Shown one piece after another: positions 35,542 to 63,893 of a stretch of DNA of 64,000 nucleotides. The notes below the pieces were generated by a model. That model did no database searches. It saw only the letters and a program-made list of their open reading frames with translations, and had not been told where the DNA came from. The first letter of the stretch is position 1, and every line of letters starts with the position of its first letter. The position numbers were made by a program, and so were the translations under genes. Location of the stretch: positions 1-64,000 of the forward strand of contig MWYZ01000054.1 in NCBI GenBank assembly GCA_002050365.1. The letters run 5' to 3'. The DNA comes from Acidobacteria bacterium 28-1 (lineage in GTDB: Bacteria; Acidobacteriota; Blastocatellia; Pyrinomonadales; Pyrinomonadaceae).

Positions 35542-36837
35542 ATGCCTCCACAATCGAAAAGTCTCTGGCGACATCAAGATTTTCTAAAATTGTGGAGCGC
35601 ACAGGCGACTTCTGTTTTCGGCTCGGAATTGGCTTCGCTCGCCTATCCGCTGACCGCAATCATTGTTCTTCAAGCAACCACTTTTCAAATTGGATTTCTG
35701 CAAGCCAGCGGCACGGCGGCGGCGGCATTAGTCGGACTTTTCGCTGGCGTAATTGCCGACCGCGTGCGCCGCAAACCGCTTTTAATAACGGCGGATTTGG
35801 GACGCGCACTGCTGGCTTTTTCAATTCCGCTCGCCGCTTTTTTCGGCGTTTTAAGAATCGAACAACTTTATCTGGTCGCATTTTTTTCAGGTGCGCTGTC
35901 AATTCTTTCAATGGTGGCAGGCGCGGCTTTTCTGCCGTCGCTGCTGGAAAAAGAACAACTCGTCGAAGGCAACAGCAAATTCGGCACGACCGAATCAGCG
36001 GCGATGATTGCCGGACCGAGTTTGTCGGGCGCGTTGGTGCAAATATTGACCGCGCCGATTGCAATTGTGATTGACGCGGTTTCCTTTTTCGTTTCAGCCC
36101 TTTTCGTCTGGCAAATCCGCGCTCCCGAAAATGTCAGAAGCGTCGGCGTGAGCGGGCGGATAGCTGTTGCGGAAAACCCGCCCGCTCACGCCGACGCTTC
36201 TGACACCAAAAGCATTTGGACGGAAATCGGCGAAGGTCTGCGCTTTGTTTACGGCAACGAGATTTTGCGCCCGCTTGCCGAATCAATCGCGGCATATTTT
36301 CTCTTTCGGCAAATCGTTTTAGCTCTCTTTACGCTTTACGCGATTCGTGAACTTCATCTCGAACCGTTTCTGCTTGGCGTAATTTTTTCGGCTCTTGGTT
36401 TCGGCTTTTTGGTCGGCGCACTGACCGTCAAATTGATTACGAATCGTTTCGGTATCGGGCGCACAATGATTAGCGCAAATCTCATCAATATCTTTGCGCT
36501 TGCGCTCGTCCCGCTGGCAAGCGGCTCGACCGCTTTCATTGTCGCCCTTTTGATAACATCTCATTTTCTCCACGCTTTCGGAGTTCAAGTCAACGGCATA
36601 AATCTGATGAGTTTGCGGCAGGCGATAACGCCAAATCATCTGCAAGGTCGAATGACCGCGAGTTTTCGTTTCGTCAACGTCGGAATGATGATGTTCGGCT
36701 CGCTGATTGCGGGCGCGTTGGGCGAATTGATTGGCTTGCGTGAAACTTTGGTCATCGGCGCAGTCGGAATGCTTGTGCCATTTTTGCGATTGCTTTTCTC
36801 GCCCGTGCGTCACCTCAACGAACAACCATCGGCATAA
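35542..36837 (+). CDS. MFS transporter (EntS-like, 12 TM) with repeat-encoded central loop
   Basis: A 431-residue inner-membrane protein of the major facilitator superfamily, closest in pattern to the MFS_3/EntS exporters. TM2-3 carry the signature loop GVIADRVRRKPLLI. The N- and C-terminal six-helix bundles are separated by a cytoplasmic loop. Residues about 197-222 of this loop (VRSVGVSGR..AHADASD) are encoded by a 28-bp-stem palindromic repeat inserted in-frame. The stop codon lies within the next hairpin (36829-36850), at the border of the cassette locus. Exported substrate unknown. Confidence 0.9.
   Translation: MPPQSKSLWRHQDFLKLWSAQATSVFGSELASLAYPLTAIIVLQATTFQIGFLQASGTAAAALVGLFAGVIADRVRRKPLLITADLGRALLAFSIPLAAFFGVLRIEQLYLVAFFSGALSILSMVAGAAFLPSLLEKEQLVEGNSKFGTTESAAMIAGPSLSGALVQILTAPIAIVIDAVSFFVSALFVWQIRAPENVRSVGVSGRIAVAENPPAHADASDTKSIWTEIGEGLRFVYGNEILRPLAESIAAYFLFRQIVLALFTLYAIRELHLEPFLLGVIFSALGFGFLVGALTVKLITNRFGIGRTMISANLINIFALALVPLASGSTAFIVALLITSHFLHAFGVQVNGINLMSLRQAITPNHLQGRMTASFRFVNVGMMMFGSLIAGALGELIGLRETLVIGAVGMLVPFLRLLFSPVRHLNEQPSA
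36132..36205. repeat. 28-bp-stem palindromic repeat inside the MFS coding sequence
   Basis: 36132-36159 and 36178-36205 are perfect reverse complements (arm starts TGTCAGAAGCGTCGGCGTGA), with an 18-nt loop. It falls exactly in the TM6-TM7 loop codons. It looks like a dispersed REP/MITE unit captured in-frame. Confidence 0.85.
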
Positions 36838-36977
36838 ATTTTTATGCCGAATTATGATTTGGCAATATAAAACAAAATGAAACCGCGATAAAATCCCTTC
36901 ATCGTTGACTTTCTTTCCAAATGTGCAGTATAAACCATTCGGTATAACACAGAAATAGTTCGGTATAATACAAAGTT
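36829..36977 (+). promoter_or_regulatory. cassette-locus leader A (attI/Pc-like)
   Basis: Components in order: hairpin TCGGCATAAA-TT-TTTATGCCGA (36829-36850), AATTATG, TTGACT (36905-36910) with an 18-bp spacer to TATAAA (36929-36934), direct repeats TTCGGTATAA at 36938 and 36959 (21 bp apart), then ATACAAAGTT ending at the cassette junction G^TT (36975). The same components at the same spacing stand before the other cassette array (59449-59595). Such a promoter plus repeats next to a cassette junction is the layout of an integron attI/Pc region; no integrase gene is adjacent. Confidence 0.65.
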
Positions 36978-37036
36978 AGAGGGCTTCAGAGTAAGGTGAA
37001 TTTAAGAGCCAAGATAAACAAGTTTAAGGAGCATTT

Positions 37037-37399
37037 ATGGACAAAAAGGCTTTGATTCGAGAGTATAAGGAGACTCGCCGCCTGATAGGTGTTTATTGCA
37101 TTAGAAATACCGTTAACGGGAAGTTGCTCGTCGGTAAGAGTATCGACCTTCCATCTATACTTAATCGTCAGCGAGCGCAACTCCGTTCAGGATCTCATCC
37201 CAATCCAACTCTACAGAAAGACCTAGTTGAATACGGAGCTGAAGCCTTTGAAGTTGAAGTGCTGGATACCCTTGAAGTGCCAGATCAGGCTGATTATGAT
37301 CCTTCAGCAGACCTGCGAACTCTTGAGCAGATGTGGTTGGACAAGCTGTCGCCATTTGGGAATCGTGGGTACAATCCAGAACCGAAGCGCGCCGTCTAA
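37037..37399 (+). CDS. GIY-YIG nuclease domain protein (cassette gene)
   Basis: 120 residues. GVYCIRNTVNGKLLVGKS (19-36) is the GIY-YIG core (GVY...LVG), with an Arg in LNRQRAQL and a Glu in RTLEQMWLDKL as further catalytic candidates. A single small nuclease domain; its partner or target is unknown. TTTAAGGAGC gives a good ribosome-binding site. Its stop TAA lies inside the R'' box of the attC site that follows, and the gene starts 60 bases after the cassette junction, as expected for a mobile gene cassette. Confidence 0.85.
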   Translation: MDKKALIREYKETRRLIGVYCIRNTVNGKLLVGKSIDLPSILNRQRAQLRSGSHPNPTLQKDLVEYGAEAFEVEVLDTLEVPDQADYDPSADLRTLEQMWLDKLSPFGNRGYNPEPKRAV

Positions 37400-37496
37400 T
37401 AACTCATTGAACCGGAGCGCGAATAGCGTTGCCTTCATTCGCAAGGTTGAATGCCTGATACGTTGAATGCGCGCCCGGTTAATTCGGGCGTTATGC
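37394..37496 (+). repeat. attC site A (integron cassette recombination site)
   Basis: R'' box GTCTAAT (37394-37400; degenerate AAC), L'' segment TTGAACCGG, R' box GTTATGC (37490-37496). The inner stem AACCGG-A-GCGCG pairs with CGCGC-CCGGTT, leaving one unpaired A, the extrahelical base that sets strand choice in attC recombination. Length 103 bp. Sequence and spacing match the three attC sites at 59.8-61.9 kb. Confidence 0.8.
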
Positions 37497-37562
37497 TTCT
37501 AGTCGTTTGTGTTACAGTAGGGAAACTCGCCGCGCAGAATACCAGAACAGGGAGAAATTTAT

Positions 37563-38288
37563 ATGTGTTTTCAAAGCAAACTACAAATTGCCGCGCTGTG
37601 CGGAGCTTTACTTATCACTACAGCCTGCGGTTCATTACCTAAGAAAGATGAAAATACGCCGTCGTCCTCATCGTCAACTTCAACGGCGGATGCACCGATA
37701 CTCGCAGCCAGTGCCGACCCGCGTGCAGATGTGGTTAAAGCGATGAAAGCCAGTCTCGACGCCAAATCGTTTCGGAAACGAATGACAACGACGAACTCCA
37801 GCGGAAGTAATATAAATTCGACGATTGAGTTTGTCGCTCCAAACCGCGCGCACATCACGCAGGATATGAATTTATCCAGCGGCAGCATAGTTAAAAAAGA
37901 AATGATTATCACCGATAAAGATTCTTACGTAAAAAATGGAGACGCGTCTTGGCAAAAGAGTCCGATGGATTTGGGCGACCTGCTCGCTCAATTCCGCGAC
38001 CCCAAAATTATTGATTCGCTAACAGAAAAGGCTGAGGTGAAGTATCTAGGCGCAGATACATTAGACGGAGGTCTGATGTTAGTTTACCAATATACAATAA
38101 AAGATTTGCTTGGAAAGGGGAATAATATGGTAACAAAGGCTTGGATTGGAACCACAGATAGTCTGCCGCACCAAACTGAATCCGAGACCGATATGGACTT
38201 GGGCACGGGTAAAATGATTCACAGCAAATCTACCGTAACTTATTACGACTATAATGCTGATATTAAAATTGAACCGCCAACGTTGTAA
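37563..38288 (+). CDS. predicted lipoprotein (241 aa)
   Basis: The lipobox LLITTACGS places the lipidated Cys at residue 22; a Ser-rich spacer follows (PSSSSSTSTADAP). The mature domain is beta-rich (STIEFVAPNRAHITQDM, EKAEVKYLGADTL, YQYTIKDLL, TKAWIGTTDSLPHQTESE) and recalls LolA/LppX-like lipid-binding half-barrels, but the family cannot be named with confidence. GGGAGAAATTT precedes the ATG. It starts 67 bases after attC A but has no attC downstream, so it is probably chromosomal rather than a cassette gene. Confidence 0.72.
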   Translation: MCFQSKLQIAALCGALLITTACGSLPKKDENTPSSSSSTSTADAPILAASADPRADVVKAMKASLDAKSFRKRMTTTNSSGSNINSTIEFVAPNRAHITQDMNLSSGSIVKKEMIITDKDSYVKNGDASWQKSPMDLGDLLAQFRDPKIIDSLTEKAEVKYLGADTLDGGLMLVYQYTIKDLLGKGNNMVTKAWIGTTDSLPHQTESETDMDLGTGKMIHSKSTVTYYDYNADIKIEPPTL

Positions 38289-38450
38289 AATGGTTTTAGA
38301 AAATGTGAAAAAGTGCCATAAGCGACATTGAAGCAAAATTTAGAAGCTTAACCCTTTTTAGCTTTATGAATGTATTGATGCTTTCATCGACATTTTAATA
38401 TCTGCATTTTTGAATTTTCCAGTCCGCTTGCTGCAAGGAGACAATTTTAT

Positions 38451-39151
38451 ATGTCGAAGCAGGAATTCCGATTACCTTTCTCAGGTCAGGTCAGGCAACA
38501 GGCTGAGACTTCGCCTGCTCGAAATGGCGTGTCTTCATCAAATCTTATTGAACCGAAATTTGTCGCCGCAAATGAAAGCGGAGAGTTGACCGCAGAGCAG
38601 CGCGCGAAATTCAAATCAATGCTGCCGGGTTTGAGAAGCGTGCTTTCAAGCCTTTCAATATTTTGCTTGATAGGAACGGTAGCTGCGTTTTTTGCTTACG
38701 TCATCATCGTTTCTCCGGCACTCCGCAACTGGCGCAATCCCGCCAAGGCTGTTGCTGCCGTCGCAAACACCTCGTCCATTTTTCTTATTATAGTAGCCGT
38801 TTTTGCATTCATGGCGGCGGTATTAGGTCTCAGTTTTCTCAAATCATTCTCGTTTACCTACGCGCGCGCTCAATTTTAAAGCCCGGCGCAGTTCGCCAAG
38901 CCGAAGGAACAATTCTCTGGAGCGGCAAAAAATATGTTGCTTCATTTCCCGAAAACAAAGCTACTTTACAAACTTGGAACGACTGCGAAATTGATGTCGT
39001 TATTCCAGGCAGACATAAATTTTTCTATCTTCCCTTTGAAAAAACAAACTGGCTCTTATCAATCAAGCGGTATCGGTTTAACTATTTTCATCGCGGGAGC
39101 TTGCGTCTCTTGGCGTTGTTCCCGCCCGCGTTAATTCGGTCGTTGGATTAA
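38451..39151 (+). pseudogene. membrane protein, frameshifted in the middle
   Basis: The first frame (38451-38879, 142 residues) has a hydrophilic N-terminus (SGELTAEQRAKFKSMLPGLR) and two membrane helices (IFCLIGTVAAFFAYVIIVS, SSIFLIIVAVFAFMAAVLGLSF), and stops after TYARAQF. Adding one T to the TTTT run at 38874-38877 continues as FLKPGAVRQAEGTILWSGKK and YVASFPENKATLQTWNDCEI without a stop to 39151. Near 39040 a hydrophobic stretch (GIGLTIFIAGACVSW) in a third frame hints at one more shift. Function unknown. This is either a decayed gene or consensus indels. Confidence 0.6.
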
Positions 39152-59421: not shown

Positions 59422-59448
59422 TTTGGCTCGATTTTTGAAAATTATAAC

Positions 59449-59595
59449 TCCGCATAATTATTTATGCAGAATTATGTTTCCACAGAAAAATGACAGCAAA
59501 AATCAGACAAACCAAATTATTTGTTGACTTAACTTTTAATACGGAATATAAATAATTCCGTATAATGCAAGTTTAATTCAGTAGAATACAAAGTT
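59449..59595 (+). promoter_or_regulatory. cassette-locus leader B (attI/Pc-like)
   Basis: Hairpin CGCATAA-TTAT-TTATGC (about 59450-59469), GAATTATG, TTGACT (59524-59529), 17-bp spacer, TATAAA (59547-59552), repeats TTCCGTATAA (59556) and TTCAGTAGAA (59577) 21 bp apart, then TACAAAG and the first cassette junction GTT (59593-59595). Element order and distances equal leader A to within 1-2 bases, though the sequences have diverged. It is therefore a functional, mobile or duplicated unit rather than chance. No integrase gene is present in the window. Confidence 0.65.
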
Positions 59596-59934
59596 CGCCG
59601 CCTCGCGGTGGCAAAGCGGAAATTTCACTTTACTTGAATCGAATCGAACGATTCGATTTGGCTCGCTGGCAACGGCACTTTTGAAAATCAAAAAACTTCG
59701 GTGGCGAAGTTCTCGCGCCATTCGGCGTGAACTCGAACTTGTCTGTCAGCAAACTTGGGTGTGGTAAAAATCACGTTGACCGAAGGCAAAGTTCTGGCGG
59801 CAGCCGCCGTTTCAGTGAACGGCGGCGGCGAACAAGTCAATGGACGTGAGCGCGGGACAGCGACTTTGTTATCACGTTGCGCGTTTAACTCGGAGTTGCG
59901 TGGTTGCCTGTCCCGCGCCACGTCATCTCCGCCG
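59594..59934 (+). other. integron-type cassette 1, no convincing gene
   Basis: Runs from the junction G^TTCGCC to the R' box of attC 1. The R'' box at its end (GGCGAAC) is the exact complement of its first bases (GTTCGCC), as required for a cassette excised by recombination. Several short frames overlap it but none has coding character or a ribosome-binding site. It may be a non-coding cassette, or may carry a regulatory RNA or promoter. Confidence 0.65.
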
Positions 59935-59940
59935 TTATGC
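59827..59940 (+). repeat. attC site 1
   Basis: R'' GGCGAAC (59827-59833), L'' TGGACGTG, R' GTTATGC (59934-59940), 114 bp. The stem GACGTG-A-GCGCGGGACAG pairs with CTGTCCCGCG-CCACGTC over 17 bp, with a single extrahelical A. Confidence 0.88.
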
Positions 59941-59970
59941 GGCTACTTGTTATTTTGAGAAAGGTGTAAG

Positions 59971-60741
59971 ATGAACGCTGATGAATTAGCCAGACTTCAA
60001 ATTATAATGACAATTATCGTTACTGTAGCCAACGTCTTTTTGGTGATTTTAACGTCAATTTATGTTTATTTAACACGCCAGATGGTTAACGAAACGAAAG
60101 CCAATCGTGACCCGACAGTTTTTGTTGACCTTGAGTTTCCTGAAAGAGAGGCGCGTGTTGCAATCGGAAATTCAGGTCAAACACCTGCTGTAAACATAAA
60201 GTTTGATGTTCAGGAAGATGTTCCTTGGCGTGGGTTAGGTAAATATTCTGAGGGACTAAAAGGATTAGAAGTTATAAAAAATGGCGTTTCTTACCTTCCG
60301 TCAAATCGCATATTAAAGTATTCAGCAGGAATTCCCGAATGGGACAAAGTTGATGAGGAAAAAAGACTTCTTAAAATAAATGTAAGCTACTACAACGAGA
60401 GTGGTAAAAAGTTTGAGCGTGAATACTTTATTGATTTATTACAGTATAAAGGCATTTTGTTTGAATCATTCCGTGACTCTAATATGGCAATAGCAAAAGC
60501 TATTCGGGACACGGAGCAATCACAGCGTTCTCGTGAGCGCGGCGACGATATGTTAAGAGATATGGGTTCTCACAGAGTAAGCGAGAAACGTTGTTCAATG
60601 TGTGCAGAACTAATACCAAGAGAAGCTAAAATATGTTCTCATTGTGGAGAAGTTCTTGACTCCAAAGTCCGCCGCATAACAAATCAATGGACGCGAGGCG
60701 GAAACAGTTGCTCTCATCGAAGGTATCGTTTGAAACCTTAA
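59971..60741 (+). CDS. cassette 2 gene: membrane-anchored protein with C-terminal zinc ribbon
   Basis: 256 residues. One N-terminal membrane helix (IIMTIIVTVANVFLVILTSIYVYL), a soluble middle domain (DPTVFVDLEFPEREARVAIGNSGQTPAVNIKF) and a zinc ribbon near the end (CSMCAELIPREAKICSHCGE). AGAAAGGTGTAAG supplies the ribosome-binding site. The final about 30 codons run into attC 2, so the last residues (NQWTRGGNSC...) are site-derived, a usual trait of cassette genes. It may be a membrane-bound regulator or phage/stress response protein; function unknown. Confidence 0.75.
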   Translation: MNADELARLQIIMTIIVTVANVFLVILTSIYVYLTRQMVNETKANRDPTVFVDLEFPEREARVAIGNSGQTPAVNIKFDVQEDVPWRGLGKYSEGLKGLEVIKNGVSYLPSNRILKYSAGIPEWDKVDEEKRLLKINVSYYNESGKKFEREYFIDLLQYKGILFESFRDSNMAIAKAIRDTEQSQRSRERGDDMLRDMGSHRVSEKRCSMCAELIPREAKICSHCGEVLDSKVRRITNQWTRGGNSCSHRRYRLKP

Positions 60742-60786
60742 CGTGCGCGTAGCTGGTTTCCGCCCGCGTCATCTCAATCGTTAGAT
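60674..60786 (+). repeat. attC site 2
   Basis: R'' GCATAAC (60674-60680) complements the cassette start GTTATGC; R' GTTAGAT (60780-60786) matches GTTRRRY. The stem GACGCG-A-GGCGGAAAC pairs with GTTTCCGCC-CGCGTC with one extrahelical A. 113 bp. Confidence 0.9.
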
Positions 60787-60820
60787 GCTTCTTTTTTCCG
60801 AACGTAAGAGTTAAGTTTAA

Positions 60821-61765
60821 ATGATGGATGGATTCTCACAACCGCATCACGTTAAAGGGCGCGCCTCGATTGCAGACTTATTCTCGTTAGGTAAGCGTTG
60901 CGGTCTCTATATTCTTCAATTCTCTGATGGTGAGATTTATGCGGGTCAGGCGTTGGATGTAACTCGCCGTTATGTTCAGCATCGTAAGGTTCACTGTGAC
61001 ATTGAGAAGATAAGATTTAAGCGTGTAGCTAAAAAGACCTTGAATGAGGAAGAACGCACCCTAATATGGATGCTCGAACATGAAGGTTATCGCTTACGAA
61101 ATATCACGTTCACAAGCATTCCGAGAGGCGAATCTGATTTCGACCTTATTATGTCTGCGGAGGAGCAAGAGCGATGGCTGAAAGACACAAGCTATGTTGA
61201 CCTTAGCGGTAGCAGAGTTGTTGACCCAGAGTTGCGACGGAAGTACAGCAGAAAGTTCCAGCGTTTTGCTGCTTTGCCTTATTCTAATGAGATTATGAAT
61301 GTTTTGCGTAAGTACATTCATGCGGGCATACCAGCACCTTTGCGAAGCGAACTATCTTTCTGGGCTTGTTCATGCTTGCCGAGTTACTCATATCCTAACG
61401 AAACTGTTTATTCACGCATAAACATACATTGGCAGGAAGTCTTTACCGCTTCGGTGTACAAAGGTGATATTGTGTTTTCATTTCACCTTGCGCTATCACC
61501 TCTTGAAGAAGCATTTGGAGAATCGCTGTCGCCGCTTCTGGAGAAATTTCCTTCTTTGGAGGCAACGGAGCATTTTTATGAACCGGGCGGGCAGAATCAA
61601 ATCAATCTCGTGATTGAAGGAGCAGAATCGGCAGAGGTATTTATGCGGCAAAAGGAAATCGTTTCAGCTATGCGGTTATTCAACTTGCGCTTAATGAAGA
61701 AAGGAGCTTGCGCCTACAGCCGCTATCACTGTATGGATTTAGCTGATAGGATAACCCGCATCTAA
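60821..61765 (+). CDS. cassette 3 gene: GIY-YIG nuclease domain protein
   Basis: 314 residues. CGLYILQFSDGEIYAGQALDVTRRYVQHRK (30-59) is a GIY-YIG core (LYI...YAG, Arg in TRRY). EEERTLIWMLEHEGYRLRNIT follows with a Glu as metal-ligand candidate. The C-terminal 170 residues are a separate, unrecognised domain (SYPNETVYSRINIHWQEVF, LVIEGAESAEVFMRQKEIV). The stop TAA falls inside the R'' box of attC 3. The upstream locus A cassette also encodes a GIY-YIG protein, of a different, shorter type. Confidence 0.82.
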   Translation: MMDGFSQPHHVKGRASIADLFSLGKRCGLYILQFSDGEIYAGQALDVTRRYVQHRKVHCDIEKIRFKRVAKKTLNEEERTLIWMLEHEGYRLRNITFTSIPRGESDFDLIMSAEEQERWLKDTSYVDLSGSRVVDPELRRKYSRKFQRFAALPYSNEIMNVLRKYIHAGIPAPLRSELSFWACSCLPSYSYPNETVYSRINIHWQEVFTASVYKGDIVFSFHLALSPLEEAFGESLSPLLEKFPSLEATEHFYEPGGQNQINLVIEGAESAEVFMRQKEIVSAMRLFNLRLMKKGACAYSRYHCMDLADRITRI

Positions 61766-61871
61766 CAATTCATTGGACGTGAGGGCGAAACAGCTTCTCT
61801 TTAAAAACTTGCGTGGTTACTTTTACGTTGTCTGTATTCGGTTTCGCCCCACGTCAACTCAATCGTTCGGT
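61760..61871 (+). repeat. attC site 3 (last of the array)
   Basis: R'' ATCTAAC (61760-61766) complements the cassette start GTTAGAT. R' reads GTTCGGT (61865-61871), the same core as in the leader A repeat (GTTCGGTATAA). The stem GACGTG-A-GGGCGAAAC pairs with GTTTCGCCC-CACGTC with an extrahelical A. 112 bp. No further cassette or attC follows. Confidence 0.9.
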
Positions 61872-62000
61872 ATGTGCTTTTGAATATAACGCATTTGATT
61901 TGTTCGGGTTGTTTATAATCAAAACTGAAATCGCTTCGGGTTTTCAATTAAAATTTTTTCGTAACTTTCTGTTGTATCCAAAAAATTAGGAGCTACCTGT
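61872..62000. other. right flank of cassette array and upstream region of S9 peptidase
   Basis: 129 bases without a gene. TATAAT at 61914-61919 may be the -10 of the peptidase promoter, but no good -35 stands 16-18 bases upstream. AAAATTAGGAGCTACCT is the ribosome-binding site. Confidence 0.4.
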
Positions 62001-63893
62001 ATGAAACACTTTTTGTCGGTTACCGTTGCACTGCTCTTTTTAATTTCACTTTGTTTTTCCGTCAACGCTTCGCTTGGACAAGACGACCTGGAGCGTTCGG
62101 TTGCATTGATGGGGAAAATTGGTTCTGCCAATTCTCCGAGTTTTTCGCCGGACGGAAAAAGCATCGCTTTTATTTCAAACTTAAACGGCATTCCGCAAGT
62201 GTGGACGATGCCCGCCAGTGGTGGTTTTCCAAAACTTGTTACAGCTTTTGATGATCCGGTCGGGTTTGTTACTTGGTCGCCTGACGGCAATTGGCTGGCT
62301 TTTAACGTCGCGCCGGGCGGCGGCTTGAACGAGCAGATTTACATCGCTCGTCCCGACGGCAGCGAGTTACGGCGGTTGACCGAAGGCGGCAAGGAAAATA
62401 ATTTTCTCGGCGATTGGACGCACGACGGAAAATATATTTTCTTCTCGTCAAATCGGCGCAATCCGGCTTCGACCGACTCTTACTTGCTTGATATTAAGAG
62501 CGGCGAAATGCGAATGGTCGCCGAAAACAAAGGCACCGGCGGTATTAACGAGGTCAGCCGCGACGGTCGGCGAGCAGTTGTCAGCCGTCTTCTTAATCGA
62601 GGCGACAACAATCTTTATTTGATTGATGTAGAAGGCGGCAAAGAAGCGCTGCTCACGCCGCACGAAGGACCAGGCAGTTTTTTCGGAGCGCAGTTCTCGC
62701 CCGACGGACGCACAATTTATTTTGCTTCAAACAAAGACCGCGATTTGCTGGCGCTTGCCCGCGTCAAAATTGATGAAGCCGGACAACCCGGCGCGATTGA
62801 GATTATCGCCGCCAGAGAAAACGGCGAACTTTCGGGCGGATTGATGAATGACGACGGGACGATGATGGTTTTGATTTGGAACATCGCCGGACGAAGCGAA
62901 CTCGCGTTTTACGATGTGAAAAATAACCGGATGACGGCTGGACAGAAACTGCCCGCAGAAATCGTCGGCGGTCTCGATTTCACAGATGACGGCGGGCGGC
63001 TTGCGATGGTTCTGTCCGGCGCGGCGTCGCCCGCAGACATCTGGACGCTCGACTTAAAAACCCGGCAACTCGCGCAACTGACCGACAGCCCGCACGCCGG
63101 AGTTGATTTGACAAAAATGGTGCGCCCGGAACTCGTCGAATACGCGGCGCACGACGGTCTCAAATTGAGCGGTTGGTTATACAAACCACACGGCGCGACG
63201 GGTGCGATGCCCGTTGTTCTCAGCTTTCACGGCGGACCCGAAGGTCAGGAGCGACCCGGTTTTAACGGCACTTATCAAGCATTGCTGATGCGCGGCATTG
63301 CTGTTTTTGCGCCGAACGTGCGTGGCTCGTCCGGCTTCGGCAAAAAATTTGTCAACCTCGACAATGGCGCATTGCGTGAAAACGGAGTCAAAGATATCAA
63401 AGCGACGGTGGATTATGTGGTGAAAAGCGGAGTTGCCGACCCAAAACGAATCGGAATTATGGGCGGCAGTTATGGCGGTTATATGGTGATGGCGGGACTG
63501 ACCGAGTACCCTGAGCTTTTCGCCGCCGGAGCGAATCTTTTCGGCATCACGAACTTTGAAACATTTTTCAAACACACTCAACCGTGGATGGCGGCAATCT
63601 CGAAAATCGAATACGGTAATCCTGAAACCGAAGTTGAGATGTTACGCAAACTATCGCCGATTCATCGCATTGACCGCATCAAAGCTCCAACCATTGTTCT
63701 GCATGGCGCGAACGACACGAATGTGCCGGTCATCGAAGCCGAACAAGTCGTGGATAATCTGAAACGACGCAATGTGCCGGTCGAATATGTTTTGTTCGCC
63801 GATGAAGGACACGGCTGGCGGAAAACGCCGAATCGAATTCGCTCGGCGGTGTCAATCGTCAAATTTTTTGAGAAATATCTCAAGGGCGTTTAA
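62001..63893 (+). CDS. S9 family prolyl-oligopeptidase-type peptidase, exported
   Basis: 630 residues with a signal peptide (about 1-28, SVNASLGQ). Residues about 35-370 form a WD40/TolB-like propeller (SPSFSPDGKSIAFISNLNG, VTWSPDGNWLAFNV, GAQFSPDGRTIYFASN). The alpha/beta-hydrolase domain follows, with Ser490 in GGSYGGYM, Asp572 in HGANDTNVP and His604 in DEGHGW. The pattern fits acylaminoacyl-peptidase/DPP-like S9 enzymes acting on short peptides in the periplasm. The protein is complete in the window. Confidence 0.93.
   Translation: MKHFLSVTVALLFLISLCFSVNASLGQDDLERSVALMGKIGSANSPSFSPDGKSIAFISNLNGIPQVWTMPASGGFPKLVTAFDDPVGFVTWSPDGNWLAFNVAPGGGLNEQIYIARPDGSELRRLTEGGKENNFLGDWTHDGKYIFFSSNRRNPASTDSYLLDIKSGEMRMVAENKGTGGINEVSRDGRRAVVSRLLNRGDNNLYLIDVEGGKEALLTPHEGPGSFFGAQFSPDGRTIYFASNKDRDLLALARVKIDEAGQPGAIEIIAARENGELSGGLMNDDGTMMVLIWNIAGRSELAFYDVKNNRMTAGQKLPAEIVGGLDFTDDGGRLAMVLSGAASPADIWTLDLKTRQLAQLTDSPHAGVDLTKMVRPELVEYAAHDGLKLSGWLYKPHGATGAMPVVLSFHGGPEGQERPGFNGTYQALLMRGIAVFAPNVRGSSGFGKKFVNLDNGALRENGVKDIKATVDYVVKSGVADPKRIGIMGGSYGGYMVMAGLTEYPELFAAGANLFGITNFETFFKHTQPWMAAISKIEYGNPETEVEMLRKLSPIHRIDRIKAPTIVLHGANDTNVPVIEAEQVVDNLKRRNVPVEYVLFADEGHGWRKTPNRIRSAVSIVKFFEKYLKGV

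Follow-up and report, generated by a model that had tools for sequence, protein, structure and literature searches.

Two arrays of integron-type gene cassettes lie on the forward strand of the window – that is, the whole 64,000-nucleotide stretch of contig MWYZ01000054.1 of Acidobacteria bacterium 28-1 that was analysed – and each of them is headed by a leader in which a palindrome, a putative cassette promoter (Pc) and an attI site follow one another without an integrase. Leader A (36829-36977, + strand) has an E-value of 1.5e-26 in the search of its own genome with R2, a sequence-only model made from seven leaders (alignment A2), of which leader A is itself one. Its left palindrome (TCGGCATAA/TTATGCCGA, 36829-36850) has a DNA fold of -8.8 kcal/mol (z -4.35) and contains the stop codon (36835-36837) of the MFS transporter gene on its left. 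The putative Pc (36905-36934, +) has both hexamers exactly, TTGACT-18-TATAAA, and the attI part (36938-36977, +) consists of two TTCGGTATAA repeats 21 bp apart (TTC-GTA-AA at 36938 and 36959) and the crossover sequence ATACAAAG^TT; to judge from the cassette junctions, the crossover would fall between G 36975 and T 36976. Leader B (59447-59595, +; R2 E 7.8e-29, this leader too being one of the seven in the model) is built in the same way, with a palindrome (GCATAA/TTATGC, 59452-59467; DNA fold -4.0 kcal/mol, z -3.49), a putative Pc with the hexamers TTGACT-17-TATAAA (59524-59552, +) and an attI part (59556-59595, +) whose repeats at 59556 and 59577 are followed by ATACAAAG^TT, with an inferred crossover between G 59593 and T 59594. 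Once both stretches had been read and aligned, the hairpin, promoter, repeats and junction that the initial annotation had ascribed to the two leaders in common were all found, the repeat distance being 21 bp in each, and the left-hand genes, an MFS transporter (A) and a SCO1-type protein (B), are as unrelated to each other as it had stated. It had allowed that the similarity might lie within random expectation for AT-rich promoters; the local alignment of A with B scores 50, a value reached by none of 2000 dinucleotide shuffles of B (maximum 37).

The attC sites were sought with R1, a covariance model built from 20 attC of the same genome (alignment A1). Cassette 1 of array A (36976-37490, +; ORF 37037-37399, without Pfam match) begins at the attI TT and ends in an attC at 37394-37498 (+; 44.9 bits, E 7e-10 in 4 kb with the filters off), a site missing from the genome-wide attC search and given by the unfiltered 4-kb search. 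The remainder of this array (37491-39142, +) is drawn tentatively, up to a weak and probably degenerate attC at 39076-39150 (R1 13.1 bits, E 0.026). Array B has three cassettes, all on the + strand: cassette 1 (59594-59934, attC 59827-59942), cassette 2 (59935-60780, attC 60674-60788; ORF 59971-60741, with a zinc-ribbon match below the Pfam cut-off) and cassette 3 (60781-61864, attC 61760-61873; ORF 60821-61765, without Pfam match). As in an integron, attI is followed by attC cassettes. Consensus hexamers of a putative Pc stand before attI in most leaders. The intI beside attI that marks a complete integron is absent, none of the genome's 13 PF00589 matches falling on the window's contig. With respect to the CALIN class, which takes at least two attC without a proximal intI, array B has three attC, array A a clear one and a weak one. 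To the right of array B (window 61858-63526) is an S9 peptidase region that recurs to the right of a solo leader, i.e. one without intI, in a relative (L147 in G004); in this relative SCO is to the left of a different leader, L112; the arrays may have been involved in rearrangements.

The leader family and its integrase loci

The whole-genome leader search that the initial annotation had proposed was run with R2 and also with single leaders. In the host genome (G000) the family, about 150 bp long, has eight copies at E<=1e-6 (two on C50 and one each on C17, C23, C67, C63, C52 and C73) and a ninth, partial copy on C11 (R2 E 0.012), in which the promoter part is lost and the palindrome joined directly to the attI core. 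Seven of the eight are in the model; the C73 copy, outside it, still scores E 1.3e-20. Leader A as a query gave five short matches (27-38 bp), four of which overlap other leaders while the fifth (C106) hits a different part of the query, so a dispersed palindrome or MITE as the origin of the family was rejected. Two leaders (L033:651-786 and L037:6628-6679) have one of the two attI repeats.

The C17 leader, with which leader A aligns, sits between a broken integron integrase gene and the first cassette. The intI is directly to the left and divergent; stops interrupt it, leaving its first 203 residues (256.6 bits against TIGR02249) and, apart from them, a C-terminal piece (85.4 bits). To the right there are cassettes with attC, which makes the leader an integron's intI-attI intergenic region. 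No integrase-type gene is found on the contigs that carry the other leaders, all 13 PF00589 matches genome-wide lying elsewhere. The sole intact integron integrase found in this genome, on C72, has a short, different attI and no leader; since the genome is 91% complete, an intact intI could have been missed. Farther along C17 (about 72.5-73.7 kb; L059:4468-5703), a tyrosine recombinase with weak XerA/XerD-type matches lies directly upstream of a leaderless cassette array with six strong attC matches. In G002 a partial integrase (L226:3108-3775, contig C43) is accompanied by a short attI (TAATAACTAGTT) nearly the same as the C72 attI of G000, and to go by these two short sites a second platform type in the genus is possible.

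A search of relatives had likewise been proposed, and it found leaders in 15 of 119 family genomes at E<=1e-6 (7 of 29 genera, own genome included); at E<=0.01 R2 matches 15 of 97 genomes, again with the own genome counted. All nine genomes searched in the genus carry the leader, with one to twelve strong matches each, and none of 37 genomes from other families of the class does under stricter filters. The best E-values in relatives reach 1.3e-25. All the genomes compared are drafts. From 48 fetched regions 51 leaders were kept of 58 matches, seven weaker overlapping or adjoining ones being dropped; counted over the matches in relatives, 17 of 68 were dropped as weak or as shadows of a stronger match. 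In a tblastn search with two integrases, six of the 51 (L106, L113, L115, L120, L122 and L146) have a full-length, divergent intI starting 9-13 bp away, in each case above the TIGR02249 cut-off and without stops. The other 45 have no adjacent full-length intI by the same search (for five of them the upstream DNA is shorter than 1 kb, and for three shorter than 0.4 kb). That the leader is the intI-attI region at six full-length-intI loci and at the broken C17 locus upholds the original reading of it as an attI site with a cassette promoter. Each of G001 and G003-G008 has one intact integrase (TIGR02249 above cut-off, no stops), and G000 has the intact C72 and the broken C17 genes. G002, an 86% complete genome, has nine strong leaders and intI that is broken or partial throughout, so its platforms may be dormant. 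The integrase of G005, G007 and G008 belongs to a sister clade (66-68% identity), in which the attI side ends ...TTCAAAGTT or ...TACAAAGTT and matches R2 weakly (E 0.008-0.5).

The initial annotation had named as damaging to its proposal a scatter of leaders without cassettes or attC, and this is not the pattern found. Of the relatives' leaders with 2 kb of DNA, 29 of 39 (26 of 36 solo ones) have an attC on their own strand no more than 2 kb downstream, as against two of 46 within 2 kb upstream, both touching the leader, and none of 39 on the opposite strand downstream (five of 39 if reverse-strand shadows are counted; 12 of 80 attC matches, reverse-strand and lying on stronger attC matches, had been dropped as such). 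Within 2.5 kb, 32 of the 45 solo leaders of relatives are followed by attC. Of the 13 that are not, two are at contig ends and eleven have 1.6-6.1 kb of DNA, in which a permissive search gave nothing significant on the leader strand; L114 and L125 look decayed or emptied by eye. In the own genome, R1, applied to 150 of 2335 first-look candidates, gives 97 attC matches at E<=0.1 on 23 contigs, with E below 1e-6 for 85 of the matches, and attC follows six of the nine leaders (A, B, C17, C23, C67 and C11), those on C63, C52 and C73 reaching contig ends after 1.2, 0.65 and 0.16 kb. The 19 other attC-bearing regions of this genome have no leader, several of them being cut by contig ends and the weaker attC regions on C49, C14 and C61 being excluded from the count. 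Leaderless arrays therefore exist too, and the idea of a leader before every array was rejected.

Scanned for their best -35/-10 pair, 60 leaders include 37 with TTGACT/TATAAA exactly and 52 that deviate from it by no more than one base. Where the deviation is two bases at most (55 leaders), 36 have a spacer of 18 and 17 a spacer of 17. Over 44 chosen leaders the AATTCGGTATAA and AATTCAGTAGAATACAAAGTT stretches stand out in the conservation profile, from which C52, C73, C11 and 13 relatives' leaders with a truncated or diverged attI end were left out, so that conservation at that end is overstated; moreover, the model that finds the leaders includes the promoter and attI positions, and their conservation is thus not independent evidence. 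Over 30 aligned rows, 84% of the cells of the left palindrome are paired; its covariation score is reached by 22 of 500 shuffles, and as a covarying hairpin it was rejected for the weakness of that signal. In our own reading its arms resemble the R''/R' boxes of attC.

Orthologous platforms and changing cassettes

Comparison of the upstream flanks shows that leader sites are common to different species. There are 19 pairs at 11 orthologous sites, three with too little DNA, and 13 of the 16 testable pairs (one of them, L142/L148, from a single genome) have no downstream tblastx homology within 5 kb. The three pairs with homology are L111/L104, where cassette-region homology is common to both sites, and those at S7 and S9, where the homology falls past the mapped attC. 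The arrays of the SCO site (leader B in G000, L112 in G004 and L129 in G006) share nothing in any of the three pairs, and at S7 the leader and both flanks are common to two genera, with four mapped attC in one and one in the other. Cassettes, for their part, recur behind different leaders. Cassette 1 of array B heads the array of the solo C11 leader as well (83% over 344 bp from GTT) and is found again inside the C36 array (78%). In the intI-bearing C72 array of G000 there is a cassette that corresponds to the one standing first after a solo leader in G004 (85.5% over 1079 bp, from 189 bp behind GTT to attC). With the same cassettes behind different leaders, the integrase-free leaders appear to be fed from a shared pool.

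Two of these sites also occur without a leader. The SCO site of G005, G008 and G046 lacks it and has a different downstream gene common to the three; the S7 site is present in 15 of 16 genomes, and two of these, with both flanks in view, have no leader. In 13 other genomes a search for the MFS site of leader A did not find it. At another site, where the gene on the right was read by eye as lon, cassette arrays of three species (L182, L183 and L187) stop directly beside this gene at three different right junctions, as if it were a repeated insertion target. The MFS, SCO, lon and S7 sites are all too diverged for base-exact junctions.

Proposed movement of the leader and loss of the integrase

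Two leaders of G003 lie in direct tandem (L104:3024-3319), and the second is identical to the intI-adjacent leader L106 of the same genome over 146 bases and the TT preceding them; the two share 148 identical bases, including TT at both ends, and none beyond, either to the left or to the right. This second leader follows directly on the G of ACAAAG^TT in the first one, its exact point of insertion. N^TT is thus found at either end of the copy, which fits the G^TT cleavage described for integron integrases (PMC12901181). Two more leaders, the second one of L115 (G004) and L133 (G008), are joined directly to an attC G^TT, with the joints in the right palindrome arm. The initial annotation had imagined an attI site copied or moved without its integrase, and the exact copy and these two fusions speak for it. 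One solo leader is 100% identical to the intI-adjacent one of the same genome in G003, and in G000 two are close to theirs (C73, 96%, and C23, 94.7%); among the 18 pairs listed, G001, G004, G006, G020 and G026 have no close solo copy (at least 88%) of their intI-adjacent leader.

The identity of the leader with the intI-attI region, the solo copies, the attC behind them and the exact copy together mark the leaders as integrase-free attI/Pc platforms. By sequence comparison such platforms are real, multicopy and kept in the genus, where a genome as a rule appears to have one intact intI together with one to twelve strong platforms, so that one enzyme may serve many collection points. We put at roughly 80% the probability that A and B are stand-alone integron platforms (palindrome, Pc and attI) of a kind that occupies many sites without intI, in other words parts of a distributed integron, and this would probably be served in trans: an IntI encoded elsewhere would insert and remove cassettes at the solo attI, and Pc would transcribe the first cassette.

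It is less certain how the platforms came to their sites, whether by movement of the leader through IntI or, at a few sites, by loss of intI in place. The copy and the fusions suggest an IntI that mobilises or duplicates the leader in one piece. It would do so by recombining the attI G^TT with the direct N^TT in the left palindrome arm, the leader being released or copied as an attI-type cassette that bears a promoter and no ORF, and a minority of platforms would derive from in-place intI loss. Stated in full – the attI/Pc module is itself mobile, a leader of 146 bp leaves without intI via the palindrome N^TT, inserts at attI, attC or genomic sites and there founds expressed arrays served in trans by one integrase – this proposal is tentative, and we rate its chances at somewhat under even. 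The TTC has an A before it in 28 of 30 aligned leaders, among them five intI-adjacent ones, and insertion at TT would therefore need some choice of target.

Perhaps, instead, every solo leader is the scar of a formerly complete integron that lost its intI on the spot by deletion or decay, and the arrays are static, ordinary CALINs. For some leaders this is a plausible history. At S10 the solo leader L126 (G002) still has beside it about 45 bp from the 3' end of intI, a gene that is complete at this site in G006; at S1, G004 has an intI that G000 and G002 lack; fragments of intI occur close to L134, L138 and L142; and significant similarity to the intI 5' end is found upstream of three of 53 solo leaders (C73, L130 and L134) by a test that flags six of the seven intI-adjacent leaders and misses L122 (p 0.02). 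These traces suggest that L126, L130, L134 and C73 arose by in-place loss. Beyond intI, the roughly 0.5 kb examined at the intI-bearing loci has no DNA in common from one locus to the next; complete integrons must then be mobile as well, which also suits the scar explanation. Nevertheless, most solo leaders end at the palindrome with no detectable intI, and neither the exact G^TT-joined duplicate nor the attC-fused leaders follow from deletion in place; static arrays, moreover, leave unexplained both the one cassette behind two solo leaders and the unrelated arrays at orthologous leaders. As an account of every solo leader we consider it unlikely.

It is considerably less likely that a transposase moved leader and array as one unit with the palindrome as its left end. 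The left end at the palindrome, the varied flanks and the transposase-like sequence seen by eye at some contig ends would suit such a unit, but no common right end is seen, the flanks after the last attC differing by eye; no palindrome copies are found apart from leaders at E<=0.001 in the own genome; and the exact copy comprises one leader alone, with its end at G^TT. Finally, chance-similar AT-rich promoters beside cassettes inserted at attG-like genomic sites, to which the use of non-classical attG sites by IntI (PMC12901181, PMC12444791) and the leaderless arrays of the own genome could lend some colour, are refuted by the shuffles, the model E-values (for C73 and for relatives alike) and the solo leader that exactly matches an intI-adjacent one.

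Relation to known systems and meaning

The sedentary chromosomal integron, with its divergent intI and attI/Pc, homogeneous attC, cassette arrays and TIGR02249 integrase, resembles what we find here. It is usually described with one platform per intI; here, unlike that arrangement, the platform is multiplied and scattered and intI is not. The CALINs too are attC arrays away from intI, as here, and off-target insertion, intI loss and rearrangement have been proposed as their origins (PMC12444791, PMC8618304); the arrays are said to be mobilisable in trans (PMC12444791). The class is defined by attC alone and, in the accessible passages of these sources, no attI/Pc of its own is described, whereas the arrays here have a leader that equals the attI of intI loci. 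An array with no attI beside it, which is our own reading of the class and not a stated part of its definition, is not what is seen here. The accessible part of PMC9024848 has it that attI sites beyond class 1 are poorly described and not detected.

By analogy, the nearest precedent for a mobile attI is the Delta-attI-type cassette of class 1 and 2 integrons, a mobile gene-bearing unit that has attI instead of attC as its 3' site and is recombined by IntI1 (PMC12901181). Its core, AAACAAAGTTRRRY, resembles the leader core ATACAAAGTT, and the one exact, N^TT-bounded leader copy found here is consistent with mobility of this kind. Such cassettes have a gene and, in most cases, a short remnant of attI, according to the available portion of that account; the leader, in contrast, has no ORF, is about 148 bp long, brings its own promoter and heads arrays of its own. 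IntI is likewise known to act beyond attI x attC, recombination of attI with attI and with attI-like sites having been shown or cited (PMC4792948, PMC10127599), but attG and secondary sites are weak or scattered, and here there is a conserved, complete attI/Pc module. In titles and abstracts of the open literature, with subscription journals mostly outside its reach, we found no description of multicopy, integrase-free attI/Pc platforms, which agrees with the remark in the initial annotation that it knew of no such class of attI-like leaders.

Integrons have usually been treated as one platform per integrase, and an attI away from intI is not routinely sought. If platforms multiply by themselves, many of the CALINs in environmental phyla may be working, expressed loci. 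The founding of arrays at new chromosomal sites becomes testable, as does the purpose that attI x secondary-site recombination serves, and the orthologous platforms with their swapped cassettes offer a ready natural experiment. Should the proposal be true, cassette expression would not be confined to the first few positions of one array, and the host could run many first positions simultaneously.
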